From positions 124,001-188,000 of the forward strand of contig NZ_JACOFU010000002.1 of the NCBI RefSeq assembly GCF_014284275.1: DNA of 64,000 nt, given 5' to 3'. Under the pieces are notes generated by a model. That model worked only from the letters and a program-made list of their open reading frames with translations. It was not told the origin of the DNA and did not search any database. The position numbers were made by a program, and so were the translations under genes. This document shows, in pieces, positions 52,330-63,360 of this stretch. Each line of letters starts with the position of its first letter. The stretch's first letter is position 1. Source of the DNA: Affinundibacterium amnicola (GTDB lineage Bacteria > Pseudomonadota > Gammaproteobacteria > Burkholderiales > Burkholderiaceae_D).

Positions 52330-54081
52330 ATGAAGCCAGTCCGCCTGCCTGCCGCTGCAACAATTGCCCTTCCTCGCTGGAGCATTATCGCGCTCTGCTT
52401 ACTTTATATATTGCCAGGTTTGATTGGGCGAGATCCATGGAAAGGCGCTGATGCCGCTGGATTTGGTGTGATGTGGACGATGGCGCACGGCACTCTCAAT
52501 GACTGGTTGTGGCCACATGTGGTCGGCTTACCTGTCCCTGAAGAAGGCCCACTGACATTTTGGTTGGGCGCACTGTGCATCAAATTATTTGGCGGCATCA
52601 TTGGCGATCCAATGGCAGCGCGTATCTCAACTGGCTTGGCATTTCTTCTTAGCTCGATTTCTGTTTGGTACACCACTTACTTATTAGGTCGTCGCGCAGA
52701 AGCACAGCCGCTAAAATTGGCTTTTGGCGGACAACCAGAACCTCGCGATTTTGGTCGCACTTTAGCGGACGGTGCCCTACTCATTTATCTTGGCTGCTTG
52801 GGTTTACTACTCCCAAGTCACACCTCAAGCAGCGGTCCCTTGCATATTGCCTTAATCGCCTACTGCTTATATGTCTGCGTACGATTTTTCGATGCGCCGA
52901 GCAAAATTGCGGCCTTCAAGATTGGTCTGGTGCTCGGTCTCTTAGTGTTAACCCGTGGCTGGGTGATACCCATTGGCATAGTATTATCGCTAATCGCCTT
53001 GTGCATTTATCGCCAACAAAAACTCACAACACAATTACTATCGATTAGTTTGCCTGTGGCTATGCTCGTTACAGGCTTGTGGATTTTTTCTATACAAACA
53101 ATTCAGCCCTATTCAAGTTCGCCCTATCAAGGTTGGATGGAATGGAATTATCGTCAAATCGGTTTCCCTATCATTGACAATATCTTTTATTTCTTCCGCT
53201 ACGGAATCTGGTTCGCATGGCCAGCATGGCCGTTCGCCGCATGGGCAATTTATGCCTGGCGCAAGCAGGAACGTACCCTGCATATCTCCTTGCCACTGTG
53301 TTTTTTGATTTGCTTTTCCTTACTGGCCTTACTAAATCATAGCCACGAAGAAGGCTATTTGCTACCGCTGCTGCCACCACTCGCTATCCTTGCCGCATTT
53401 GGTTTACCAACCATGAAGCGTAGCGCCATCAATGCAGTGGATTGGTTTGCAGTCATGGTCATGACAGGCGCAGCTGGCTTATTTTGGCTAGGCTGGATTG
53501 CCTTGCAAACTGGTTGGCCTGCACGCACCAGCAAAAAAGTTTTAAGCTGGGCGCCTGGTTACATTCCTGAATTTAATGCATTCACCTTCATCATCGGTTT
53601 AGGTATCACCATCATTTGGTTCCGCATTGTGTACTGGCGCATTTCACGTCAGCCATCGGTACTCTGGCGTGCAGTCGTGCTTTCCAGTGGCGGCGTCATC
53701 TTATGCTGGTTCTTGTTAATGTCACTGTGGCTGCCACTCGTCAATCATCGCGTCAGCTATGCAACGGTCGCCAAAGAGATGACAGAAAAAATTCCTACAC
53801 CATATCGCTGCATCGATAGCAAACTTGGCGCATCACAACGCGCATCTTTTGCTTATTTCAGCAAAGTTCATTTCGCAGGCTTTGACGAGCAAAATTGTGA
53901 TCTCTTACTGACCCAAGGCAATCGCCGCTTTCAGGGAAAATCGAAAGAACCAGTCGATAAAGATTTTCCGGGCAACTGGGAAATGATTTGGGAAGGCCAA
54001 CGCGCAGCTGACAAAGACGAGTTCTTCACGCTATACAGAAAAGTCGACAAACCGCAGATCGCGAAAGAATCAGAAGACTAA
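52330..54081 (+). CDS. ArnT/PMT-like membrane glycosyltransferase
   Basis: The 583-residue protein has many hydrophobic segments and an early acidic loop (GRDPWKGADAAGFGVMWTMA) like the catalytic loop of GT-C glycosyltransferases of the ArnT/PMT group. A second conserved part is EEGPLTFWLGALCIKLFG. The last 90 residues form a soluble periplasmic domain. Such enzymes move sugars from undecaprenyl carriers to lipid A or proteins. The acceptor is unknown. It is a single gene after rpmE2. Confidence 0.78.
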   Translation: MKPVRLPAAATIALPRWSIIALCLLYILPGLIGRDPWKGADAAGFGVMWTMAHGTLNDWLWPHVVGLPVPEEGPLTFWLGALCIKLFGGIIGDPMAARISTGLAFLLSSISVWYTTYLLGRRAEAQPLKLAFGGQPEPRDFGRTLADGALLIYLGCLGLLLPSHTSSSGPLHIALIAYCLYVCVRFFDAPSKIAAFKIGLVLGLLVLTRGWVIPIGIVLSLIALCIYRQQKLTTQLLSISLPVAMLVTGLWIFSIQTIQPYSSSPYQGWMEWNYRQIGFPIIDNIFYFFRYGIWFAWPAWPFAAWAIYAWRKQERTLHISLPLCFLICFSLLALLNHSHEEGYLLPLLPPLAILAAFGLPTMKRSAINAVDWFAVMVMTGAAGLFWLGWIALQTGWPARTSKKVLSWAPGYIPEFNAFTFIIGLGITIIWFRIVYWRISRQPSVLWRAVVLSSGGVILCWFLLMSLWLPLVNHRVSYATVAKEMTEKIPTPYRCIDSKLGASQRASFAYFSKVHFAGFDEQNCDLLLTQGNRRFQGKSKEPVDKDFPGNWEMIWEGQRAADKDEFFTLYRKVDKPQIAKESED

Positions 54082-54216: not shown

Positions 54217-54301
54217 GCCGAGATGGCGGAACTGGTAGACGCACTGGACTCAAAATCCAGCGCCGCAAGGCGTGCCGGTTCGATTCCGGCTCTCGGCACC
54301 A
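54217..54301 (+). tRNA. tRNA-Leu (anticodon CAA)
   Basis: The 85-base sequence folds as a class II tRNA. The acceptor stem is GCCGAGA/TCTCGGC, the D arm contains GGTAGACGC, the anticodon stem-loop CTGGA-CTCAAAA-TCCAG gives CAA, the long variable arm is CGCCGCAAGGCG, and the T arm is CCGGTTCGATTCCGG. CCA is encoded. It reads UUG codons. Confidence 0.97.
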
Positions 54302-54310
54302 AAAGTATTC

Positions 54311-54339
54311 AAGCCTCTTGAGAAATCAAGAGGCTTTTT
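54311..54339 (+). terminator. Rho-independent terminator of tRNA-Leu
   Basis: AAGCCTCTTG and CAAGAGGCTT form a perfect 10-base stem with a 6-base loop and T tail, 10 bases after the tRNA. Confidence 0.92.
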
Positions 54340-54386: not shown

Positions 54387-55976
54387 CTATTGGCTTGTCA
54401 CCATCTGCTGTTGCAGACTCAAAACGATAAACTCAGCAGGATGCACCACCGCGACTTTTATAGTGATGTTCATAAATCCGTTAAGTATGTCAGCTGCCGT
54501 CATCGTCGCACCCAAACCACAAGCGACAGAAAAAGCATCTGACGGGCTAGATCCTTGCAAGCCGCCTGCTTGCCAAATCGAGGTCAAAAAACTGCTAATC
54601 ATGCTAGTCACGGCTGCCCAAGTATTCGCATCGTTAGGCGAAAACATATAATTTCTTAATGTATCTTTAATCGATTGCTCAATGTAAATGATCGTGCGAC
54701 GCACCTGAATATAGCGCCAATCATCGCTATTTCCATCAAGTGTACGGGCACCCCAGACTAAGATACCTAGCCCATTAAAAAACCGTATCGCATTAATGGA
54801 TTTACCCGTTACAGCATCCACATTTAAATTCCCCTGCTGTGCATCGCTTAAACGAATCGGCAATGACACCGCACCTACGATGCTGGTATTGGCTGGCGCA
54901 TTCCACACACCATTTTGACTATCGTTCACGGCATACACACCCGCCATCGCCCCACTCGCTGGCAAGATGTTTGCATAGTCCAACACTTGATTCATGATTT
55001 GCTGATAGCTAGGACTAGCGATCAATAGCGCCGCTTGCAACTGGCTATTCGACAAAGGATTCGCAGGAGGATTTTGTATCGCATTCAAAATAGCTGCCGC
55101 AGCGGGATTAGGATTGCTCGTGGGATTTAGGAGCGCAGCCAGTGGCGCGACATCACCACCAAACAAATTCGTAAAATCAATGTCGGCACTTTGCATAATC
55201 GTGGTGCCGATGAATGGGTAATAGCAAACCCCATAATTCAAACCATGACTACCAGTCGCGCCACGGAAATTCTCTATGTCATTGGTGTACAAAACGGGAT
55301 CAGGCGTATCGCCACCGATCACGTCAAAAATACACACCGCAGTTTGCATTTCTGAAGCCTGCAGCAAAGCCGTTTGCATTAAGGTCACATTGTCCGCCAA
55401 GGACAACAAAGTCGCCTCAGGAATCACGTACATGGTCGGTTCCTGTCGGCTTGTCAAGACCGCCAAGCCGGCCATCAAATCATTAAGCGATACATTCGCA
55501 TTGACAGGCCGTACAGTAGAATCGGGCAAAGATTTCTTACTCGGCGCGCCATATGTGCCGACAGAAACAACGTAGGCAGGTCCGCCACCATTTTGAAAAA
55601 ACAAGCGCAGGCTGTTGACCATGTAATAAAGCGTATTCGGATCAGGCAAGATCGCATAATCCACACCGCCAATATTCACATAATGCCCAACACTCGGTGG
55701 CGACGAATGCGGCGCTTGCGCCACCAAATAATACTCAGGCTGATACTGCTTCGCCGGATCAGCTGGCGGCGCAGGATCATCCAACAAATACATCGCCGCA
55801 AATTCAGCATAAGAAGAAATCACCTGCGGCGTATTGAGGTAAGACTTGCCTTGATATTCTGCTTTGGGCGTGTAGCCGATGAAGGCTGGGATCGCGGTGG
55901 CGACTGGGACTACCGAATTGGGGAAGGCGTTGACTTCGTTGATGTAGACGCCTGGGGTTTTGTATTGTTGAGTCAT
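54387..55976 (-). CDS. Orphan contractile injection system/phage tail sheath protein
   Basis: The ATG at 55976 (GGGAAA upstream) gives 529 residues and starts MTQQYKTPGVYINEVNAFPN, the typical opening of sheath proteins. The C-terminal sheath domain has INAIRFFNGLGILVWGARTL, then DDWRYIQVRR, FSPNDANTWAAV and NITIKVAVVHPAEFIVLSL, matching Afp/PVC-like (eCIS) sheaths more than classic Myoviridae sheaths. No tube, baseplate, spike or ATPase genes are beside it. It may be a remnant or part of a dispersed system (inference). It lies between tRNA-Leu and ABC-3C system 2. Confidence 0.85.
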   Translation of the reverse strand: MTQQYKTPGVYINEVNAFPNSVVPVATAIPAFIGYTPKAEYQGKSYLNTPQVISSYAEFAAMYLLDDPAPPADPAKQYQPEYYLVAQAPHSSPPSVGHYVNIGGVDYAILPDPNTLYYMVNSLRLFFQNGGGPAYVVSVGTYGAPSKKSLPDSTVRPVNANVSLNDLMAGLAVLTSRQEPTMYVIPEATLLSLADNVTLMQTALLQASEMQTAVCIFDVIGGDTPDPVLYTNDIENFRGATGSHGLNYGVCYYPFIGTTIMQSADIDFTNLFGGDVAPLAALLNPTSNPNPAAAAILNAIQNPPANPLSNSQLQAALLIASPSYQQIMNQVLDYANILPASGAMAGVYAVNDSQNGVWNAPANTSIVGAVSLPIRLSDAQQGNLNVDAVTGKSINAIRFFNGLGILVWGARTLDGNSDDWRYIQVRRTIIYIEQSIKDTLRNYMFSPNDANTWAAVTSMISSFLTSIWQAGGLQGSSPSDAFSVACGLGATMTAADILNGFMNITIKVAVVHPAEFIVLSLQQQMVTSQ

Positions 55977-56142: not shown

Positions 56143-57873
56143 TTAACTGTGCGATTCGATTCTGAACAACTTATCTTCTTGGGACAACTTAACAATAAAG
56201 TACTCCTCTTTATTCAAATCTGAGGGAAGTTTATCTCTAAGAATAGAGGCAACGAACTGAACGTGATTCTTTTCACGTCCGACGAATTTTGCGATTTTTG
56301 ATAACTGATTGTCGTGCATCAATTCTTTTTTGTCATTTAAGAGGAAGTGATAACAAGGAATATTTTCCTCGTCCGCAAATAATGTATATGCGATATCAAA
56401 GCAAGTAATTTCCCCTTGTTTCTTTCCAGAGCTAAAATTCGTGTTGAACGAACTAAACTTATAAATCCGCTGCCCAGTTCGACTCGTAATAATGTCATAT
56501 TTTAAAGCGTACTGTTCCCCATATAATTCGTCAGAAATTTCCGAAAAGTGTTTATTGAGTTTATTTAACTGAGTTTGTATTAGTGATTCAAAATCAGTGG
56601 AAAAAATTGTTTCATCAATCTGCGTCAATTCAAGATTAAGATTTTTAAGATTTAATTCAGTTGATGCTATCTGCTGAATAATTATTTCAAATTCACCTTT
56701 ACGTCGGTATTTTTCATTTAGAGAAATAACTAAGCTCTCAAGCTCTTCGAAAGAGTCACTTTTTGCAATACGTTCAGCAAGTACTTTCTCCTCCTCAAGA
56801 TATTTCCTTAACTCCCTTTCTTCGTTCTGAATTTTTTCACCGAGTAAGGGCAACTCTTTAGAAATATACCTAGCTTTTTCCTCAACCATCTTATTGTGGA
56901 ATTCGACTAGCTCCTCAAAAGTTTTTTGAACTCGATCCAACTTACCAGTTGCATCGTTATACAATGACTTCAGTTGAGAGATGTCAATTTGAAAATGATT
57001 TAACTTAATATCATTCATCGCTTCAACTACAAGATTTTGACGCAATTTTGATCTACTAATTGAAGAACTGATTAAACTAACTTTGTATTTAATTTCATCC
57101 AATTTTTGCAAATCCAACTCAAAATTTGGATTGACCTGCAAAGAGGATTTTTTTTCATTTAGTTTTTCGATATCTACCAAAAGAAGTGCTAGCGATGTCT
57201 CATACGCAGATCTAGTTTGAGCTGACTCAAGTCGCGACTTAAACGAAGTCTCGACTCGAATCTCAGCCAGAATATTTTGCTTCGCATCGCCTTGCTCAAA
57301 ACCACATCCTAATAGAAACAAATGTAGTGTTTCATATTCATCTTCACGAGTATATTGATTAAGTGTACGAAGGGTATTCGTAACACCAAGCTCTTTGTAT
57401 CTAATATTGTGAGAGATAATCTGTGGGAATGTTGGTTTCTTTCCGTAGTGATCTGAAAACAACTGGTTTGTAAGAGTCTCCTCAAACTCCTCTTCAGTCA
57501 TCTGTTTTCCATTAATCTTTCGGATCATTTTGTTTCTGGATAAAAAATTTCTCTCAATCACCAATTCATTAGCTAGAGGATTAGCTAAGTCATCGCTCAT
57601 AACCAAAGTAATGATCGTATGAGTATCGATTAGGAAATTCTTAACGAGTTTGTACTCTGTTTTTTTGTTTTCTGGATCGGTATAAATTCCCTTAGCGCTA
57701 GCTCCTAGGCAAAAATCAATCAGCATTAAGACAGTCGTTTTACCAACGTTATTCCCGGTAGCCTCAGCAAGGTTTGCGTTTGTTTCATCAACGATCAGAT
57801 TAAGCCCAGCATGAAACTTGATGTCTCGAATCATCCCATGAATATTTTCGATTCTAAGCAATTTTAAGAACAT
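56143..57873 (-). CDS. ABC-3C system 2: DUF2326 family ATPase
   Basis: The 576-residue protein begins MFLKLLRIENIHGMIRDIKF and has Walker A in GNNVGKTTVLMLIDF (40-54). Coiled-coil segments fill the middle (about 185-415). The C-terminal half has FSSGKKQGEITCFDIAYTLF and a Walker B-like HFLLNDKKELMHDNQL. It belongs to the same DUF2326 class as the ATPase of system 1 but is clearly diverged from it. Its start overlaps the middle-component gene by 10 bases. It should be the motor of this conflict system. Confidence 0.85.
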   Translation of the reverse strand: MFLKLLRIENIHGMIRDIKFHAGLNLIVDETNANLAEATGNNVGKTTVLMLIDFCLGASAKGIYTDPENKKTEYKLVKNFLIDTHTIITLVMSDDLANPLANELVIERNFLSRNKMIRKINGKQMTEEEFEETLTNQLFSDHYGKKPTFPQIISHNIRYKELGVTNTLRTLNQYTREDEYETLHLFLLGCGFEQGDAKQNILAEIRVETSFKSRLESAQTRSAYETSLALLLVDIEKLNEKKSSLQVNPNFELDLQKLDEIKYKVSLISSSISRSKLRQNLVVEAMNDIKLNHFQIDISQLKSLYNDATGKLDRVQKTFEELVEFHNKMVEEKARYISKELPLLGEKIQNEERELRKYLEEEKVLAERIAKSDSFEELESLVISLNEKYRRKGEFEIIIQQIASTELNLKNLNLELTQIDETIFSTDFESLIQTQLNKLNKHFSEISDELYGEQYALKYDIITSRTGQRIYKFSSFNTNFSSGKKQGEITCFDIAYTLFADEENIPCYHFLLNDKKELMHDNQLSKIAKFVGREKNHVQFVASILRDKLPSDLNKEEYFIVKLSQEDKLFRIESHS

Positions 57874-58091
57874 AGCTCAATACTTCCATTGTCATTGTAT
57901 GAAACCAAACCTGCCAAAAACAGCCAATCAAGTGCTAGGACAAAAACGGGCAGTTGCATTTCGTGTAATTTACGCGATTCGATATATAAATTCATCGGAC
58001 TAGTTTCACCATGCAGTCTCAATGCTTCAAGCACAAATCCGCCATTAAAATACAAACTATTTGCTGGATGAATATTTTCAGGCAATAGCAT
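57864..58091 (-). CDS. ABC-3C system 2: small middle component
   Basis: The ATG at 58091 (AAGGA, 8 bases upstream) gives 75 residues starting MLLPENIHPANSLYFNGGFV. It continues with LYIESRKLHEMQLPVFVLAL, DWLFLAGLVSYNDNGSIEL and ends CS. The N-P-N-S-x-Y-F/Y-N-G pattern resembles one ABC-3C middle-component family (MC6-like by memory). It overlaps the SMEK gene by 14 bases and the ATPase gene by 10. The longer frame to 58139 is unlikely. Confidence 0.78.
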   Translation of the reverse strand: MLLPENIHPANSLYFNGGFVLEALRLHGETSPMNLYIESRKLHEMQLPVFVLALDWLFLAGLVSYNDNGSIELCS

Positions 58092-59043
58092 CTGACAATC
58101 CTTGTGGCACTTTAAAAATCTTACAACGAATAAAAGCATCTACAGCCAATGCATTGACACACATTGTCAATTCTTCGAGTGGTATATCAGCATAATTTGA
58201 ACTACCTTTGATTGTTTTAATGGCTTGCTCAACTATTTCAAAGAAAAGTTCATCCCCAGAGATTTGCATACTCAACTTTATATAACTTTGACGTAGCCAA
58301 TTCAAAACAGAATTACTCTTGTTTTGCCCAGATGTATCAAAAATAGAATAGATTTTATCGATTTTAGGGTGCAGCAATTTATAATCTTCAATGAGTGTTG
58401 CAGCTGCAGCCAAATTATTAAAGGTGATTTTTTGATCGACCTCAAACGCCTTTGAAAATGAGTCATTCTTACAATCAACAAGATTTTCTTTTGCAAGAAT
58501 ATTTATTATTTCAGCCAAATTCGTTTCTACTAAAGGTAGATCCTGATCAGACTTTAGTTCTTGCTTAAGAAAGTCATAAATTTCGCGCTGCTTTTCAATT
58601 TTCAAATGTAATATATAACTCAGGATAGTTTTCACATCGTATATATCATTTGCCGGTGAGAAAATTAATCCATGTGGATTTAGGAATGTCTGTTTTCTCA
58701 AGTCAGAAGCATCTTTTGAGATCGATATAAACTTAAAATTATATCCAGCATAAGCTGCCAAATCTTTTCCCAAAGCAGATTCAATTTTACTTTTTGTCGC
58801 AGTGGAAGACACTTGAAGTATCAATAAATTTTGAGAATCAACTAAGTCTATTCCTGCTGCATTTTGCGCTATTTGATTTATATTTTTTAACGAATAGCCA
58901 AAAAGAACATTTAAGAAATTCGAATAGAAATCCTCGGCATGTAAGTGAAAATCGAGAATATTTAACTTTCCACGAAGTTCCACACGAGTACAAAGAATTG
59001 ATAATTTCTCTTCACAAAGATTCCAATACGATGATCGATTCAT
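58078..59043 (-). CDS. ABC-3C system 2: SMEK-domain effector
   Basis: The 321-residue protein opens with a SMEK domain: LNILDFHLHAEDFYSNFLNV, then NQIAQNAAGIDLVDSQNLLI and LQVSSTATKSKIESAL. Glu37, Asp66, Gln77 and Lys84 lie in the order of a restriction-endonuclease-like active site. The last 100 residues look like an ABC-3C CTD, ending in VNALAVDAFIRCKIF. It is the first gene of the operon. It is expected to damage nucleic acid when the ATPase signals (inference from the family). Confidence 0.82.
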   Translation of the reverse strand: MNRSSYWNLCEEKLSILCTRVELRGKLNILDFHLHAEDFYSNFLNVLFGYSLKNINQIAQNAAGIDLVDSQNLLILQVSSTATKSKIESALGKDLAAYAGYNFKFISISKDASDLRKQTFLNPHGLIFSPANDIYDVKTILSYILHLKIEKQREIYDFLKQELKSDQDLPLVETNLAEIINILAKENLVDCKNDSFSKAFEVDQKITFNNLAAAATLIEDYKLLHPKIDKIYSIFDTSGQNKSNSVLNWLRQSYIKLSMQISGDELFFEIVEQAIKTIKGSSNYADIPLEELTMCVNALAVDAFIRCKIFKVPQGLSDAIA

Positions 59044-59382: not shown

Positions 59383-62300
59383 CTATCCGACACTAACTAA
59401 ACTCCTCCCCCCAGCCCCTCGCACCACCATCACCTTAGTCGCAATCCTCTCCGTCATCTCCTGCACATGCGAGATCACGCCGACTTTTCTGCCCATGGCT
59501 TGTAGGCCGTCTAGGGCGTCCATCGCTACGCGTAGTGTGTCGGCATCTAGGCTGCCGAAGCCTTCGTCTATGAAGAGGGATTCGACGCGTACGCGTTTGC
59601 TGGAGAGTGATGCCAGGCCTAGTGCTAGGGCTAGTGAGACTAGGAAGGATTCGCCGCCTGAGAGTGAGTGGACTGAGCGGGCTTCGTCGCCCATGTCTTG
59701 GTCTATCACCATGAGCGCTAGGCTGTCGTTGATGCGTTGCAGGCGGTAGCGGCGGGCGAGTTCGTGTAGGTGGCGGTTGGCGTAGCCGATTAGGACATCG
59801 AGCGTGTATTGCTGGGCGTAGTTGCGGAATTTTTTGCCGTCGGCTGCACCGATTAGTTGGTTTAGGGTTTCCCAGATTTTGCTTTTGGCTTCTTGGTTGC
59901 TTAGCTGTTTTAGGATGTCGGCAGCTTGCGTGCGGCGGGCTTGGTCTTGGGCGATGGCGGTTTGTAATTGGCTGACTTGCGCTTGTGCTTGGCTGCGTTG
60001 TTTTGTCAGGATTTGTAGTGCTTGGCTTAGTTGCGTGCTAAATGATGCTGTTGCGTTTTCTTCTGCAATCGCATCACTGTCTGGCTCACCATCTTCATCT
60101 ACATTTTCATTCACATTCGCGTCTGCGTTGTCATCTGCATTGTCATCTCTCTTTGACTCGTCTTGTGCCAAGATTGTGTGTACATCAGGGCGTTGCGCTT
60201 GGTGTTCTGCGCACAAACGTTGTCGTTCTTGGCTGAGCGTTTGTGCTTGTTGGCTGGCGTTGGCAATGGCGAGTAAGGCATTGCGTTCGCTGGTGATCCA
60301 CGCGGCGTCGTAGCTTAGTAATTGACGTAGTTGAGTTTCTGGATTTTCTGCAGAATTTTCTCCACTCATTAGGCTTGTGCCGTGCTCTGCTAACCAGCTT
60401 GCTAATGCGGCTGCGGCGTTTGCTTGCAGGCTTTGTTCCGTAGCTTGACGTGCTGTTGCTTGTGCTAATGCTTCGGTGCAGCGGCTGTGGGCTAGCACTG
60501 CGGCATTGTGGTTTTGGGTGGCTAGATCTACCGCTTGTTTGGCAGCATTAATCGCTTGTGTGAATTGGACTTCGATTTGTTTTAAGCTGAGTTCTGGTCT
60601 TTGTGCTTGCGGTGTAGTGTGCTGAATTAGGTCGGCGAATAAGTCGATGAGAGTGCGCAATAAGGCGCTTCTTTCGCTTTGCTTTTGTTGAAGTGCTTGC
60701 GCGCTGGCTGCTAGGCTTTTTGCGCTGTTTTGCTGTTCTTGCTCTGCTTGTTGCAGGATAGCGCTGAAGTTATTCAACTCTAGGGTCAAACTGCTCGCGC
60801 GATGGTTGCAGGCTTCGCGTTGCTTGCTTTGTTTGTGCCATTCTTTGGCGTGTGCTGCGCATTGTTGGGTGAATTGCTCGGGCGCGTTTTGCCATTGCTC
60901 TTTCCAGTTGCTTGCACCGTCGCCTAGGTCATGCAGTGCTGGTGTGAGTTCTTCTAAATAGCTGTTGAGTCTGGCTTTACTTTGTGTGCATTGTTCTTGC
61001 GTATGTGCTTGTTCTGCTTTGCTGCGCTCTACGGCGTTGAGAGCATTTTGTTGGGCTTCTTTATTGGTGTTGTGCGTGCGCGTGGCTTGTTCATAGTGGG
61101 CTTGTGCGCCGTCTTTGCTTTGTAAGGCGGTGCGGTTGGCATTTTCTAAGTTAGCGATATTCACCAGTGCTTGTTGCACTTGGGTGGTTTGTTCGACTAA
61201 CCATGTGCTCAGTGCATTTTGTGCTTGCGAGAGATCGGAGATCTCTTGCGCCAGCGGATGCGTTTGCCATGCGCTTTGCGTTTGTGCGACCTGCGCTTGT
61301 TGTTGCGCCTCTTCTTGCTGGGCTTGTTGAAGCTGTGTTTGTAAGCTCGTAACCAACGCCTCTTTGCTGCTGAATACTTGTTGCGACTCTTGAGTGCTTA
61401 GGCGGCATTGTTGTACCTGCGCTTGCAATTGCTCCAGCATTACGTGCAACTGCGGTAACTCCGGCACATGCGGCTGATCGCTACGGTATGGATGTTCGTG
61501 CGAACCACAGACTGGGCAAGCTTGATCCGGCGCTAAGGTGGCGCGTAGATCTTCGGCAGATTTTAGGAAAGCGCTTTCAGCAATTTTGAACGAACGTTCG
61601 GCTTGCTCTTGCGCTGCGATTAATGCCGGTAATTTGTCTTGTGCTTGTTTGGCTTCGTTCTTAGTTTGGTTGAGACTGCTTTGCAACGAGTGAATTTGTT
61701 GCTGCGTTTTATGCAGGCGTGCTTTCTCATCTTCACGGTTGTTCGCCAATTGTTCTAGGCTGCTTAAGTGTTCGCGACGTTTTTCTAATGCTGGCTTTTG
61801 TTGCAGCTGGGCGTTTAATTTGGTGCTGGATTCCAGATATGCCGCTGCGCTTTGTTGGCGTGCTTGTTCGGCTTTTTCTAATTGCGTTTGGCTGAGACTT
61901 AGTTGCTCGCTAAGGTCTGCGATTTGCGCTTGTTGTGTTTGCTGCTCACTCGCATGTTGCGCGTGCTTTTGTGTTAAGTGCTGAAGTTCGTCTTGTGCTT
62001 GTTTGGCTTGGCGCAGCAAGACTTCCCATTTTGTCCAATCGTCTGCCAAGACTTGCAAGGCTCTGTGTTCGCTTAGCCATGTAGTGCAGGCTTGCAATTG
62101 GCTTTGGTTGGTGTTGATGTCGACTTGCTTTGCTTGCTGCTGTTCTTGGGTTTGACTGCATTTTTCTTGCAACTTGGCGTGCGCTTCTTGCATCGCTTCG
62201 TGCGCGGGTTGCATGGTAGCGATAGCTGCTTCTAGCGCTTTGGCGGCGTCTAATTGCGGTGCGGCTTGCGCTTGAATTTGCTCAGCTTTTTGTAGCTGCT

Positions 62301-63360
62301 GCTTGGCGGCTTGCTGCTGTTGTTCTTGTTGTTGGCTATTGCTCTGCGCGCTTTGGAGTTGCGCTTGGGCTTTGATGATTTGTTGCTGACATTGCTCTAC
62401 GCTGGTTTTTAGGCGATCAGTTTCAGTTAGTAATGGACGAGCGACTTGCACCTCTTCGATTTGCTGTAGCTGTGCTTGTCTTGCTGCGGATTGCGCCCAT
62501 GCTTGCTGCGTTTGCTCGACTTGTTCTCGTGCGATTTGGCTATCATGTTGCAGCTTTTGGTCTTGTTCAAACCAACGCATGGCTTGTTCTAAGCCGAGTT
62601 TGCGTTCTTCTAATTTTTGCAGTTGTGCTTGTGCGTTTTGTTGATCGCTGTCGAGCTGTGTGCGCTCTTCTTCGGATAAGGGCTTTTGATCGTCTAAGCG
62701 ATCAAGTATGCGTTGCAGGTCTTGTTGCTCGCGCTTGGCGCGTTCGAAAGCGCGTTTAGATAATTCGCTATAGATCGCGCTGCCTGTCAGGGTTTCTAAT
62801 AATTCGCCACGTTCGTTGTCTTCGGCTTTTAAGAAGCTGGAGAATTCATTTTGCGCGAGCAGGACGGCGCGGGTAAATTGTTCGAACTTGAGTCCTATGC
62901 GTTTTTCTATTTCGGCTTTGACTTCCGTTTTTTTACCGCCTATGGGCGTCAGCTCTGGCAACTGATGCAGCGTCATGGCTGTTGGCTGCAAACCGCCCGT
63001 GGCTTTATTGCGTGAACGGCGCACACTCCAACGGGCGCGATAACTGACTTGATCACAACCGACGAAATCGACTTCGGCATAACCTTCCCCGGTGCCGCGA
63101 CGTAATAGATTGCCGGTGTCTTGTTGCGAAATAAGTTCGTTACCATCGGGTAGTGTCTTGCTGCCGCCGGCTTTGATCAGGCGTGGCGTATTTTCATACA
63201 AGGCCATACATAGCGCATCGAGCAAGGTGCTTTTGCCTGCACCTGTTGCGCCGCTGATGGCGAATAGGCCAGCCGATTTGAGTGGCTCTTGTTCAAAATC
63301 GACTTCGAATTCGCCGGCGAGTGAGGCGAGATTTTTTCCGCGTAGGGCTAAGATTCTCAT
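59383..63360 (-). CDS. sbcC: Exonuclease SbcCD, ATPase subunit SbcC
   Basis: The 1,325-residue protein has an N-terminal head with Walker A in SGATGAGKSTLLDAL (residues 35-49) and LLAQNEFSSFLKA. Very long Gln/Ala-rich coiled coils follow, with a zinc hook Cys615-Pro-Val-Cys618 (ACPVCGSHEHPY). The C-terminal head has LSGGESFLVSLALALGLASL and FIDEGFGSLD. It opens hairpins and DNA ends with SbcD. A strongly acidic Asn/Asp/Glu-rich insert lies near residues 1063-1107. The start overlaps sbcD as ATGA. Confidence 0.95.
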   Translation of the reverse strand: MRILALRGKNLASLAGEFEVDFEQEPLKSAGLFAISGATGAGKSTLLDALCMALYENTPRLIKAGGSKTLPDGNELISQQDTGNLLRRGTGEGYAEVDFVGCDQVSYRARWSVRRSRNKATGGLQPTAMTLHQLPELTPIGGKKTEVKAEIEKRIGLKFEQFTRAVLLAQNEFSSFLKAEDNERGELLETLTGSAIYSELSKRAFERAKREQQDLQRILDRLDDQKPLSEEERTQLDSDQQNAQAQLQKLEERKLGLEQAMRWFEQDQKLQHDSQIAREQVEQTQQAWAQSAARQAQLQQIEEVQVARPLLTETDRLKTSVEQCQQQIIKAQAQLQSAQSNSQQQEQQQQAAKQQLQKAEQIQAQAAPQLDAAKALEAAIATMQPAHEAMQEAHAKLQEKCSQTQEQQQAKQVDINTNQSQLQACTTWLSEHRALQVLADDWTKWEVLLRQAKQAQDELQHLTQKHAQHASEQQTQQAQIADLSEQLSLSQTQLEKAEQARQQSAAAYLESSTKLNAQLQQKPALEKRREHLSSLEQLANNREDEKARLHKTQQQIHSLQSSLNQTKNEAKQAQDKLPALIAAQEQAERSFKIAESAFLKSAEDLRATLAPDQACPVCGSHEHPYRSDQPHVPELPQLHVMLEQLQAQVQQCRLSTQESQQVFSSKEALVTSLQTQLQQAQQEEAQQQAQVAQTQSAWQTHPLAQEISDLSQAQNALSTWLVEQTTQVQQALVNIANLENANRTALQSKDGAQAHYEQATRTHNTNKEAQQNALNAVERSKAEQAHTQEQCTQSKARLNSYLEELTPALHDLGDGASNWKEQWQNAPEQFTQQCAAHAKEWHKQSKQREACNHRASSLTLELNNFSAILQQAEQEQQNSAKSLAASAQALQQKQSERSALLRTLIDLFADLIQHTTPQAQRPELSLKQIEVQFTQAINAAKQAVDLATQNHNAAVLAHSRCTEALAQATARQATEQSLQANAAAALASWLAEHGTSLMSGENSAENPETQLRQLLSYDAAWITSERNALLAIANASQQAQTLSQERQRLCAEHQAQRPDVHTILAQDESKRDDNADDNADANVNENVDEDGEPDSDAIAEENATASFSTQLSQALQILTKQRSQAQAQVSQLQTAIAQDQARRTQAADILKQLSNQEAKSKIWETLNQLIGAADGKKFRNYAQQYTLDVLIGYANRHLHELARRYRLQRINDSLALMVIDQDMGDEARSVHSLSGGESFLVSLALALGLASLSSKRVRVESLFIDEGFGSLDADTLRVAMDALDGLQAMGRKVGVISHVQEMTERIATKVMVVRGAGGRSLVSVG

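Follow-up and report, generated by a model that had tools for sequence, protein, structure and literature searches.

A solitary eCIS-type sheath gene beside tRNA-Leu in Undibacterium and its counterparts across the family

The 64-kb stretch of DNA analysed here (the window) carries an intact gene for an A-type sheath protein of the eCIS kind, which stands alone at its locus and adds a second sheath, a solitary one, to a genome already holding a self-contained eCIS. By family the protein is an ordinary sheath; the unusual part is its solitude, its persistence without a machine and its recurrence. We propose, tentatively, that what was once an eCIS sheath has been retained for a function that needs no tube, probably by assembling itself into sheath-like polymers. 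A sheath ordinarily has no use unless there is a tube for it to drive, and lone sheaths in genomes without a tube match, at several independent places in the family, would point either to an unrecognised function of their own or to a strikingly biased decay of eCIS clusters. Surveys that require tube and baseplate genes miss solitary sheath loci; one metagenome survey, according to the accessible part of its text, dropped every candidate that lacked any of these gene classes (PMC12210884). A literature search, with most subscription journals outside its reach, found no paper on solitary eCIS sheaths.

The sheath gene and its surroundings

The gene (54387..55976, minus strand) is open for 529 amino acids from an ATG start, and its description from sequence as a full-length sheath with a conserved C-terminal domain was borne out. 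The core and C-terminal domain sequences of contractile sheath proteins are both present, with Pfam matches over the cut-offs to the end of Phage_sheath_1 (PF04984, residues 332-413, E 2e-8) and to Phage_sheath_1C (PF17482, residues 417-522, E 7e-14). The top PDB sequence match is 9r9h ('phage tail sheath family protein', E 5e-108), with AlgoCIS at E 1e-83 and the Anabaena CIS at E 6e-78; over the chains AlgoCIS Alg2, Anabaena CIS All3325, Afp2-4 and Pvc2-4 the values run from E 1e-83 to 1e-31. An AlphaFold2 model based on 52 sheath sequences, which replaced a poor model based on 16 (pLDDT 55), has a mean pLDDT of 88.3 and a pTM of 0.88, the first 18 residues being poorly predicted. The model has the sheath fold across the whole protein and matches AlgoCIS Alg2 with a Z of 34.4 over 417 aligned residues (37% identity). 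In a viral fold library its best matches are phage tail sheaths (E 2e-20, TM about 0.55), and phage sheaths are only 7-21% identical to it in the fold comparison. The C-terminal 190 residues match PHROG tail-sheath families (E 2e-41), as those of any eCIS sheath might.

The sheath had been described as framed by a tRNA-Leu and a conflict system, and it is. Its stop codon lies 85 bp from a tRNA-Leu(CAA) gene (54217..54301, plus strand), which shares a stretch with the sheath in three of the four orthologous Undibacterium loci; a terminator-like hairpin of 11 pairs, recognised by pattern only, lies between the two (54311..54336). Upstream of the tRNA, a gene whose 583-aa product matches no Pfam family at E 0.001 (52330..54081, plus strand) forms an anchor. 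Upstream of the sheath, and co-directional with it on the minus strand, is an ABC-three-component (ABC-3C) operon (56143-59043) made up of a DUF2326 ATPase (PF10088, PADLOC PDC-M68B; 56143..57873), middle component 6 (MC6, PF20293; 57864..58139) and a C-terminal-domain protein, the SMEK/CTD10 component (PF21941/PF20275; 58078..59043). An SbcC-like gene with SbcC_Walker_B (59383..63360, minus strand) is the far-side anchor of the variable region. The ABC-3C operon is a neighbour of the sheath, and we do not claim the sheath as a member of it; none of the defence families matches the sheath.

Solitude was assessed by tblastn with the 14 proteins of the eCIS cluster on contig C28 of the same genome as queries. 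In the 64-kb window the sheath was the sole match, with no tube, baseplate, spike or AAA ATPase clustered around it, and the adjoining DNA (14 kb on its left, 12 kb on its right) gave no match, so that a complete eCIS just outside the window was rejected. As a control, 9 of the same 14 queries were found in a divergent (A-type) cluster, L117. A prophage remnant found no support in the six neighbours scanned, which match no phage family of known function, or in the best PDB sequence matches, which are CIS sheaths. No integrase was noticed beside the tRNA-Leu of the window. No promoter-like site was found on the coding strand upstream of the sheath start. A promoter common to the four orthologous loci was rejected, their upstream DNA being non-homologous and promoter-like sites not in excess (3, against 3.2 in shuffles).

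The genome (G000; 4.58 Mb in 32 contigs, 99.8% complete) was also searched as a whole for tube, baseplate and ATPase genes, as the sequence-only reading had proposed. Contig C28 holds a complete eCIS with an ATPase, two baseplate J proteins, gp25, a VgrG-like protein, a LysM protein, two tubes and one sheath, the latter 46% identical to the window's; the gene names are presumptive, given by resemblance. This cluster, with its single sheath and two tubes, spans L005:18028 to L004:733, on another contig than the window and out of sight of the sequence-only reading. The claim that the sheath has no tube, baseplate or ATPase gene therefore stands for the window and its flanks but fails for the genome.

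Orthologues in Undibacterium, selection and origin

The window-type sheath occurs in four of the 43 genomes of the genus: the window's own, U. macrobrachii KCTC 23916 (G002), U. seohonense KACC 16656 (G010) and G024, the last three copies being 85%, 81% and 77% identical to the window sheath. The four form one clade (support 100/98), and at each locus (20-64 kb searched) the sheath was the sole match to the 14 C28-cluster proteins. The tRNA-Leu and the 583-aa neighbour lie near the sheath in G000, G002 and G024, while the tRNA-Leu of U. seohonense is on a different contig from the sheath; the SbcC-like gene lies near the sheath in G000 and, intact, in U. seohonense. Leaving aside the blocks at tRNA-Leu and sbcC, what these loci share with the window's at the DNA level is almost exactly the coding sequence. 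The neighbours differ in kind: those of the U. seohonense sheath include Septu (PtuA/PtuB) and ParD/ParE where the window locus has ABC-3C, and nothing recognisable as a defence gene turned up among those tested in G002 and G024. In U. macrobrachii what is left of an SbcC-like gene, a broken piece of its end, lies just upstream of the solitary sheath (L037:11684-11913).

Three of these four carriers (G000, G002 and G024) hold a complete eCIS. The U. seohonense genome (99% complete) contains a single sheath, and neither a tube, nor a C28-type baseplate J (E 1e-10), nor an eCIS ATPase (E 1e-20) was found in it, baseplate J having been sought within the genus with the C28-type protein only. The window-type sheath thus persists in a genome, a 160-contig draft, where no machine was found. 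In a single-contig genome of another genus (G341), a solitary A-type sheath 63% identical to the window's was found, and no tube, eCIS ATPase or second sheath. The idea that the window sheath is part of a dispersed injection apparatus is weakened both by the self-contained eCIS with its own sheath and by U. seohonense.

The comparison of synonymous and non-synonymous change, also proposed from sequence, indicates constraint. Pairwise dN/dS among the four orthologues is 0.13-0.21 (NG86) or 0.15-0.23 (YN00), at a dS of 0.5-1.3. Pairs differ at 249-416 nucleotides without a stop; scattered at random, those differences create a mean of 7-11 stops, and no more than 1 of 2000 trials per pair is free of them. 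The frame is intact in all four orthologues, which sets them apart from pseudogenes. Given the single clade and the shared position, we argue that most of the divergence among the four arose in the solitary state, and the purifying selection could in part be inherited through repeated acquisition from unsampled eCIS clusters.

Decay in relatives was looked for at the tRNA-Leu site, which was matched in 39 of the 43 genomes and read in eight (seven without the window-type sheath, and U. seohonense) as stretches of 4-17 kb. No sheath remnant was detected there by tblastn, and no decayed orthologue was met across the 43 Undibacterium genomes and these eight sites. This absence of decay holds for the window's orthologues but not for other solitary lineages, two of which (G042 and G132) decay. 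On contig C86 of U. seohonense (L128:1497 to L129:8367), the tRNA-Leu(CAA) gene harbours a ~24-kb island that includes a phage-type integrase, and the 23-bp tRNA end recurs at the far side together with the original terminator; in G017 an integrase likewise follows tRNA-Leu(CAA).

The window's subfamily is also found in complete eCIS of genus g82 (G347 and G374), whose sheath is 72% identical to the window's and in the same clade, as are the solitary copies of G341, G344 and G412. Unlike the window's, the g82 sheath clusters with two tubes, LysM, VgrG-like and gp25 proteins and two baseplate J proteins. Based on these sequence comparisons, a g82-like, A-type complete eCIS is likely to be the kind of source from which the window gene came. 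The suggestion that the gene is a relic is to that extent right about its origin, but as a statement of its present condition it fits poorly with the low dN/dS and the four intact frames. With the eCIS sheaths AlgoCIS Alg2, All3325, Afp2-4 and Pvc2-4 the window protein shares sequence, predicted fold, and arm and core motifs; unlike them it has no tube, baseplate or ATPase alongside, and its type is present where none was found.

Solitary sheaths across the family

A census of 371 family genomes, each at least 90% complete, revealed an eCIS-type sheath (E 1e-70) in 68 and the tube family PF06841 (E 0.001) in 77. A sheath without a tube gene was found in 20 of the 68 sheath-bearing genomes (G006, G010, G019, G027, G034, G042, G113, G125, G132, G177, G182, G184, G188, G197, G201, G204, G341, G399, G402 and G412). 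In three of these (G125, G188 and G197) VgrG-like sequence still lies beside the sheath, so that 17 of the 20 are solitary; five further solitary copies in tube-bearing genomes (G000, G002, G024, G344 and G004) bring the loci to 22, and at every one the sheath was the sole tblastn match to the 14 C28-cluster proteins. No eCIS ATPase (E 1e-20) was found in 17 of the 20 tube-less genomes, the exceptions being G188 with one, G197 with a partial gene containing a stop, and G027 with a weak match (27%) judged generic. A PF17482 scan of 14 genomes found further sheath-domain proteins in G019, G006, G182 and G344, and these four are not free of contractile-tail genes.

In a 62-row tree, which holds part of all the sheaths in the 68 genomes, the solitary label needs at least seven changes, gains or losses, when reduced clusters are left out, and nine if they count as not solitary; neither the tree nor the cluster counts include cl_G020, whose ORF had been given a wrong start, or five distant sheaths (the x_ rows). 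A second solitary set within Undibacterium (G027, G019, G034, G042 and G004) lies in every case beside the gene for the same 229-231-aa protein, and at L057 (G027), L058 (G019), L059 (G034) and L060 (G042) the sheath immediately follows a DUF924 gene of the same orientation. Its four intact rows have a dN/dS of 0.10-0.18 (NG86), and the copy at L060 is broken: about 257 bp are duplicated in tandem, which puts the sequence out of frame. The sheath of G132 is eroding, with 24 of 109 invariant columns changed and the N-terminal arm motif lost.

In genus g6 one 7-kb flank adjoins a complete eCIS in L064 (G047) and runs straight into a lone sheath in L100, L101, L102 and L106 (G177, G182, G184 and G204), with 84-93% DNA identity over the one flank compared. 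It looks as though the sheath had stayed while much of the surrounding cluster went, and these solitary copies are under weaker constraint (dN/dS 0.36-0.49). Reduced clusters of the same genus (L103 in G188, L104 in G197 and L112 in G189) hold a sheath, VgrG-like pieces and an AAA ATPase, which in G197 is partial and has a stop; one tube is left in G189 and none in G188 and G197, and no baseplate J query matched within 20 kb.

These loci bear on the possibility that the solitary sheath is a slowly decaying relic or mobile passenger, left behind or moved when an eCIS was lost, with no present function and a low dN/dS inherited from its donors. The number of changes on the tree, the four g6 species with a lone sheath behind the flank that leads to a complete eCIS in G047, the decay in G042 and G132 and the g6 dN/dS all accord with such passage, and the synonymous divergence of the Undibacterium C-terminal domain suggests recombination among lineages. 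Against it stand the Undibacterium copies themselves, which form one clade at a shared position with low dN/dS and no stops, and the stretches read at eight tRNA-Leu sites, where no decayed orthologue was seen. For the window sheath we consider this explanation somewhat unlikely.

Sheath anatomy and the case for a tube-free role

Across 36 cluster sheaths 109 alignment columns are invariant; 101-105 of them are unchanged in the four Undibacterium copies, and these include most of the arm positions (the count is over the 36 cluster rows; the start of G277 is mis-set, and its leave-one-out value of 9 is an artefact). In the accessible parts of the literature, sheath subunits are described as interlocking by a 'handshake' and contacting the tube via an attachment helix of domain I (PMC8894135), which in R-pyocin is positively charged, with basic residues not conserved among homologues at large (PMC6088184). 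A helix of the model, codons 450-469 (54570..54629, minus strand), is likely to be equivalent to this attachment helix, by analogy with the portion of PMC6088184 that was available.

The last residue of the putative helix is lysine in 36 of 36 cluster sheaths and, unlike these, three of the four Undibacterium copies are without it (Q, K, N and Q in G000, G002, G010 and G024, respectively). Residues other than lysine are found at position 469 in 8 of 21 solitary sheaths (one of them arginine) versus 0 of 36 cluster sheaths (Fisher p 1e-4). In seven phylogenetically independent pairs, the loss stands at 2-4 to 0 with a median p of 0.25, which is not significant, and loss of lysine 469 was rejected as a signature of solitude once relatedness was counted. 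Two reduced loci with a tube also deviate at this residue (A in G189 and R in G020:C2).

The order of conservation along the protein is reversed between the two groups. The outer part (codons 41-330; 54987..55856, minus strand; boundary our choice from the alignment) is 76-89% identical among the four orthologues and 47-96% among nine cluster sheaths compared, while the C-terminal sheath domain (PF17482, codons 417-529; 54390..54728, minus strand; from Pfam and the alignment) is 60-77% identical among the orthologues and 89-100% among the nine, which belong to one branch. As the synonymous sites of the Undibacterium C-terminal domain are also unusually diverged, recombination among lineages may explain part of its variability. 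Relative-rate tests of seven A-type rows against an A-type cluster sheath gave no result significant singly (p 0.05-1 for the C-terminal domain). On both grounds the inversion was rejected as proof of a tube-free role, of which it is suggestive only. A swap of the C-terminal domain from known eCIS sheaths is unsupported, since the C-terminal domains of the clade still group together (support 96/92).

To judge from these alignments, the arms for polymerising are kept and the tube contact looks relaxed in the four Undibacterium orthologues. Phage sheath proteins that form polysheaths (T4 gp18, phiKZ and FV3 gp053) give, in the accessible parts of PMC6088184 and PMC6357053, a precedent for assembly without tube or baseplate; they are distant in sequence and, unlike the products of solitary genes, their polysheaths come from sheath protein produced or collected apart from the other phage components. 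It is on the kept arms, the relaxed-looking tube contact and this precedent together that we propose a protein that works without a tube and assembles by itself. On this view the sheath, whether a remainder of an A-type eCIS or acquired from one, would now stand alone in a variable region between tRNA-Leu and sbcC, which holds defence genes in at least two genomes. With its fold and its N- and C-terminal interlocking arm motifs kept, it would act most likely without an eCIS tube and, once expressed, would self-assemble in the cytoplasm into sheath-like polymers (polysheaths), the polymer presumably being what selection keeps. Its role might be that of a scaffold, sequestration or a part in conflict, for which the defence neighbours are only a hint. 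Counted against this reading are the decay in G042 and G132, the g6 dN/dS, the want of a promoter-like site, and the purified diffocin sheath CD1363, which according to the accessible part of PMC6088184 has no tendency to assemble.

A role in trans with a resident eCIS is possible, since three of the four Undibacterium carriers have one. The solitary protein could serve such a complete eCIS as an alternative or accessory sheath, for example in particles with a different outer surface, much as orphan hcp and vgrG genes of T6SS encode single components of a contractile machine apart from the main cluster and serve the resident machine in trans. G000, G002, G024 and G344 indeed combine an A-type solitary sheath with an eCIS that has one sheath of another type, and identity falls to about 32% in the outer parts, a strong divergence, with the arm and core motifs retained. 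PVC and AFP, according to the available portion of PMC8894135, employ several sheath proteins. Unlike the T6SS orphans, however, the solitary sheath persists where no machine was found: G010, G341 and G412 carry it, and neither a tube nor an eCIS ATPase was found in them. The Q or N at residue 469 in three of the four Undibacterium copies, in a putative tube-facing helix, also speaks against use on a tube, although it is suggestive only. We regard the accessory role as unlikely.

The decoy suggested from sequence, a dominant-negative subunit that would co-assemble with and jam the sheaths of invading phage or other CIS, found no direct support and is very improbable: it would suit the kept arm motifs and a variable region holding ABC-3C here and Septu with ParDE in U. 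seohonense, but phage sheaths are so distant in the fold comparison that co-assembly is unlikely, eCIS particles arrive assembled, and the sheath belongs to no defence family matched. The three options offered by the sequence-only reading (relic, decoy and dispersed apparatus) are narrowed rather than settled.

Extended to the family, the tube-free reading would imply that sheaths have been repeatedly domesticated as self-assembling, possibly contractile cytoplasmic polymers, in Undibacterium among defence genes, forming a class missed by eCIS surveys; taken as a whole, this wider proposition seems rather improbable to us. A further reduced arrangement was observed at L069 (G020, contig C2), where none of the other queries among the 14 matched within 19.5 kb and the sheath and one tube stand together as a pair.
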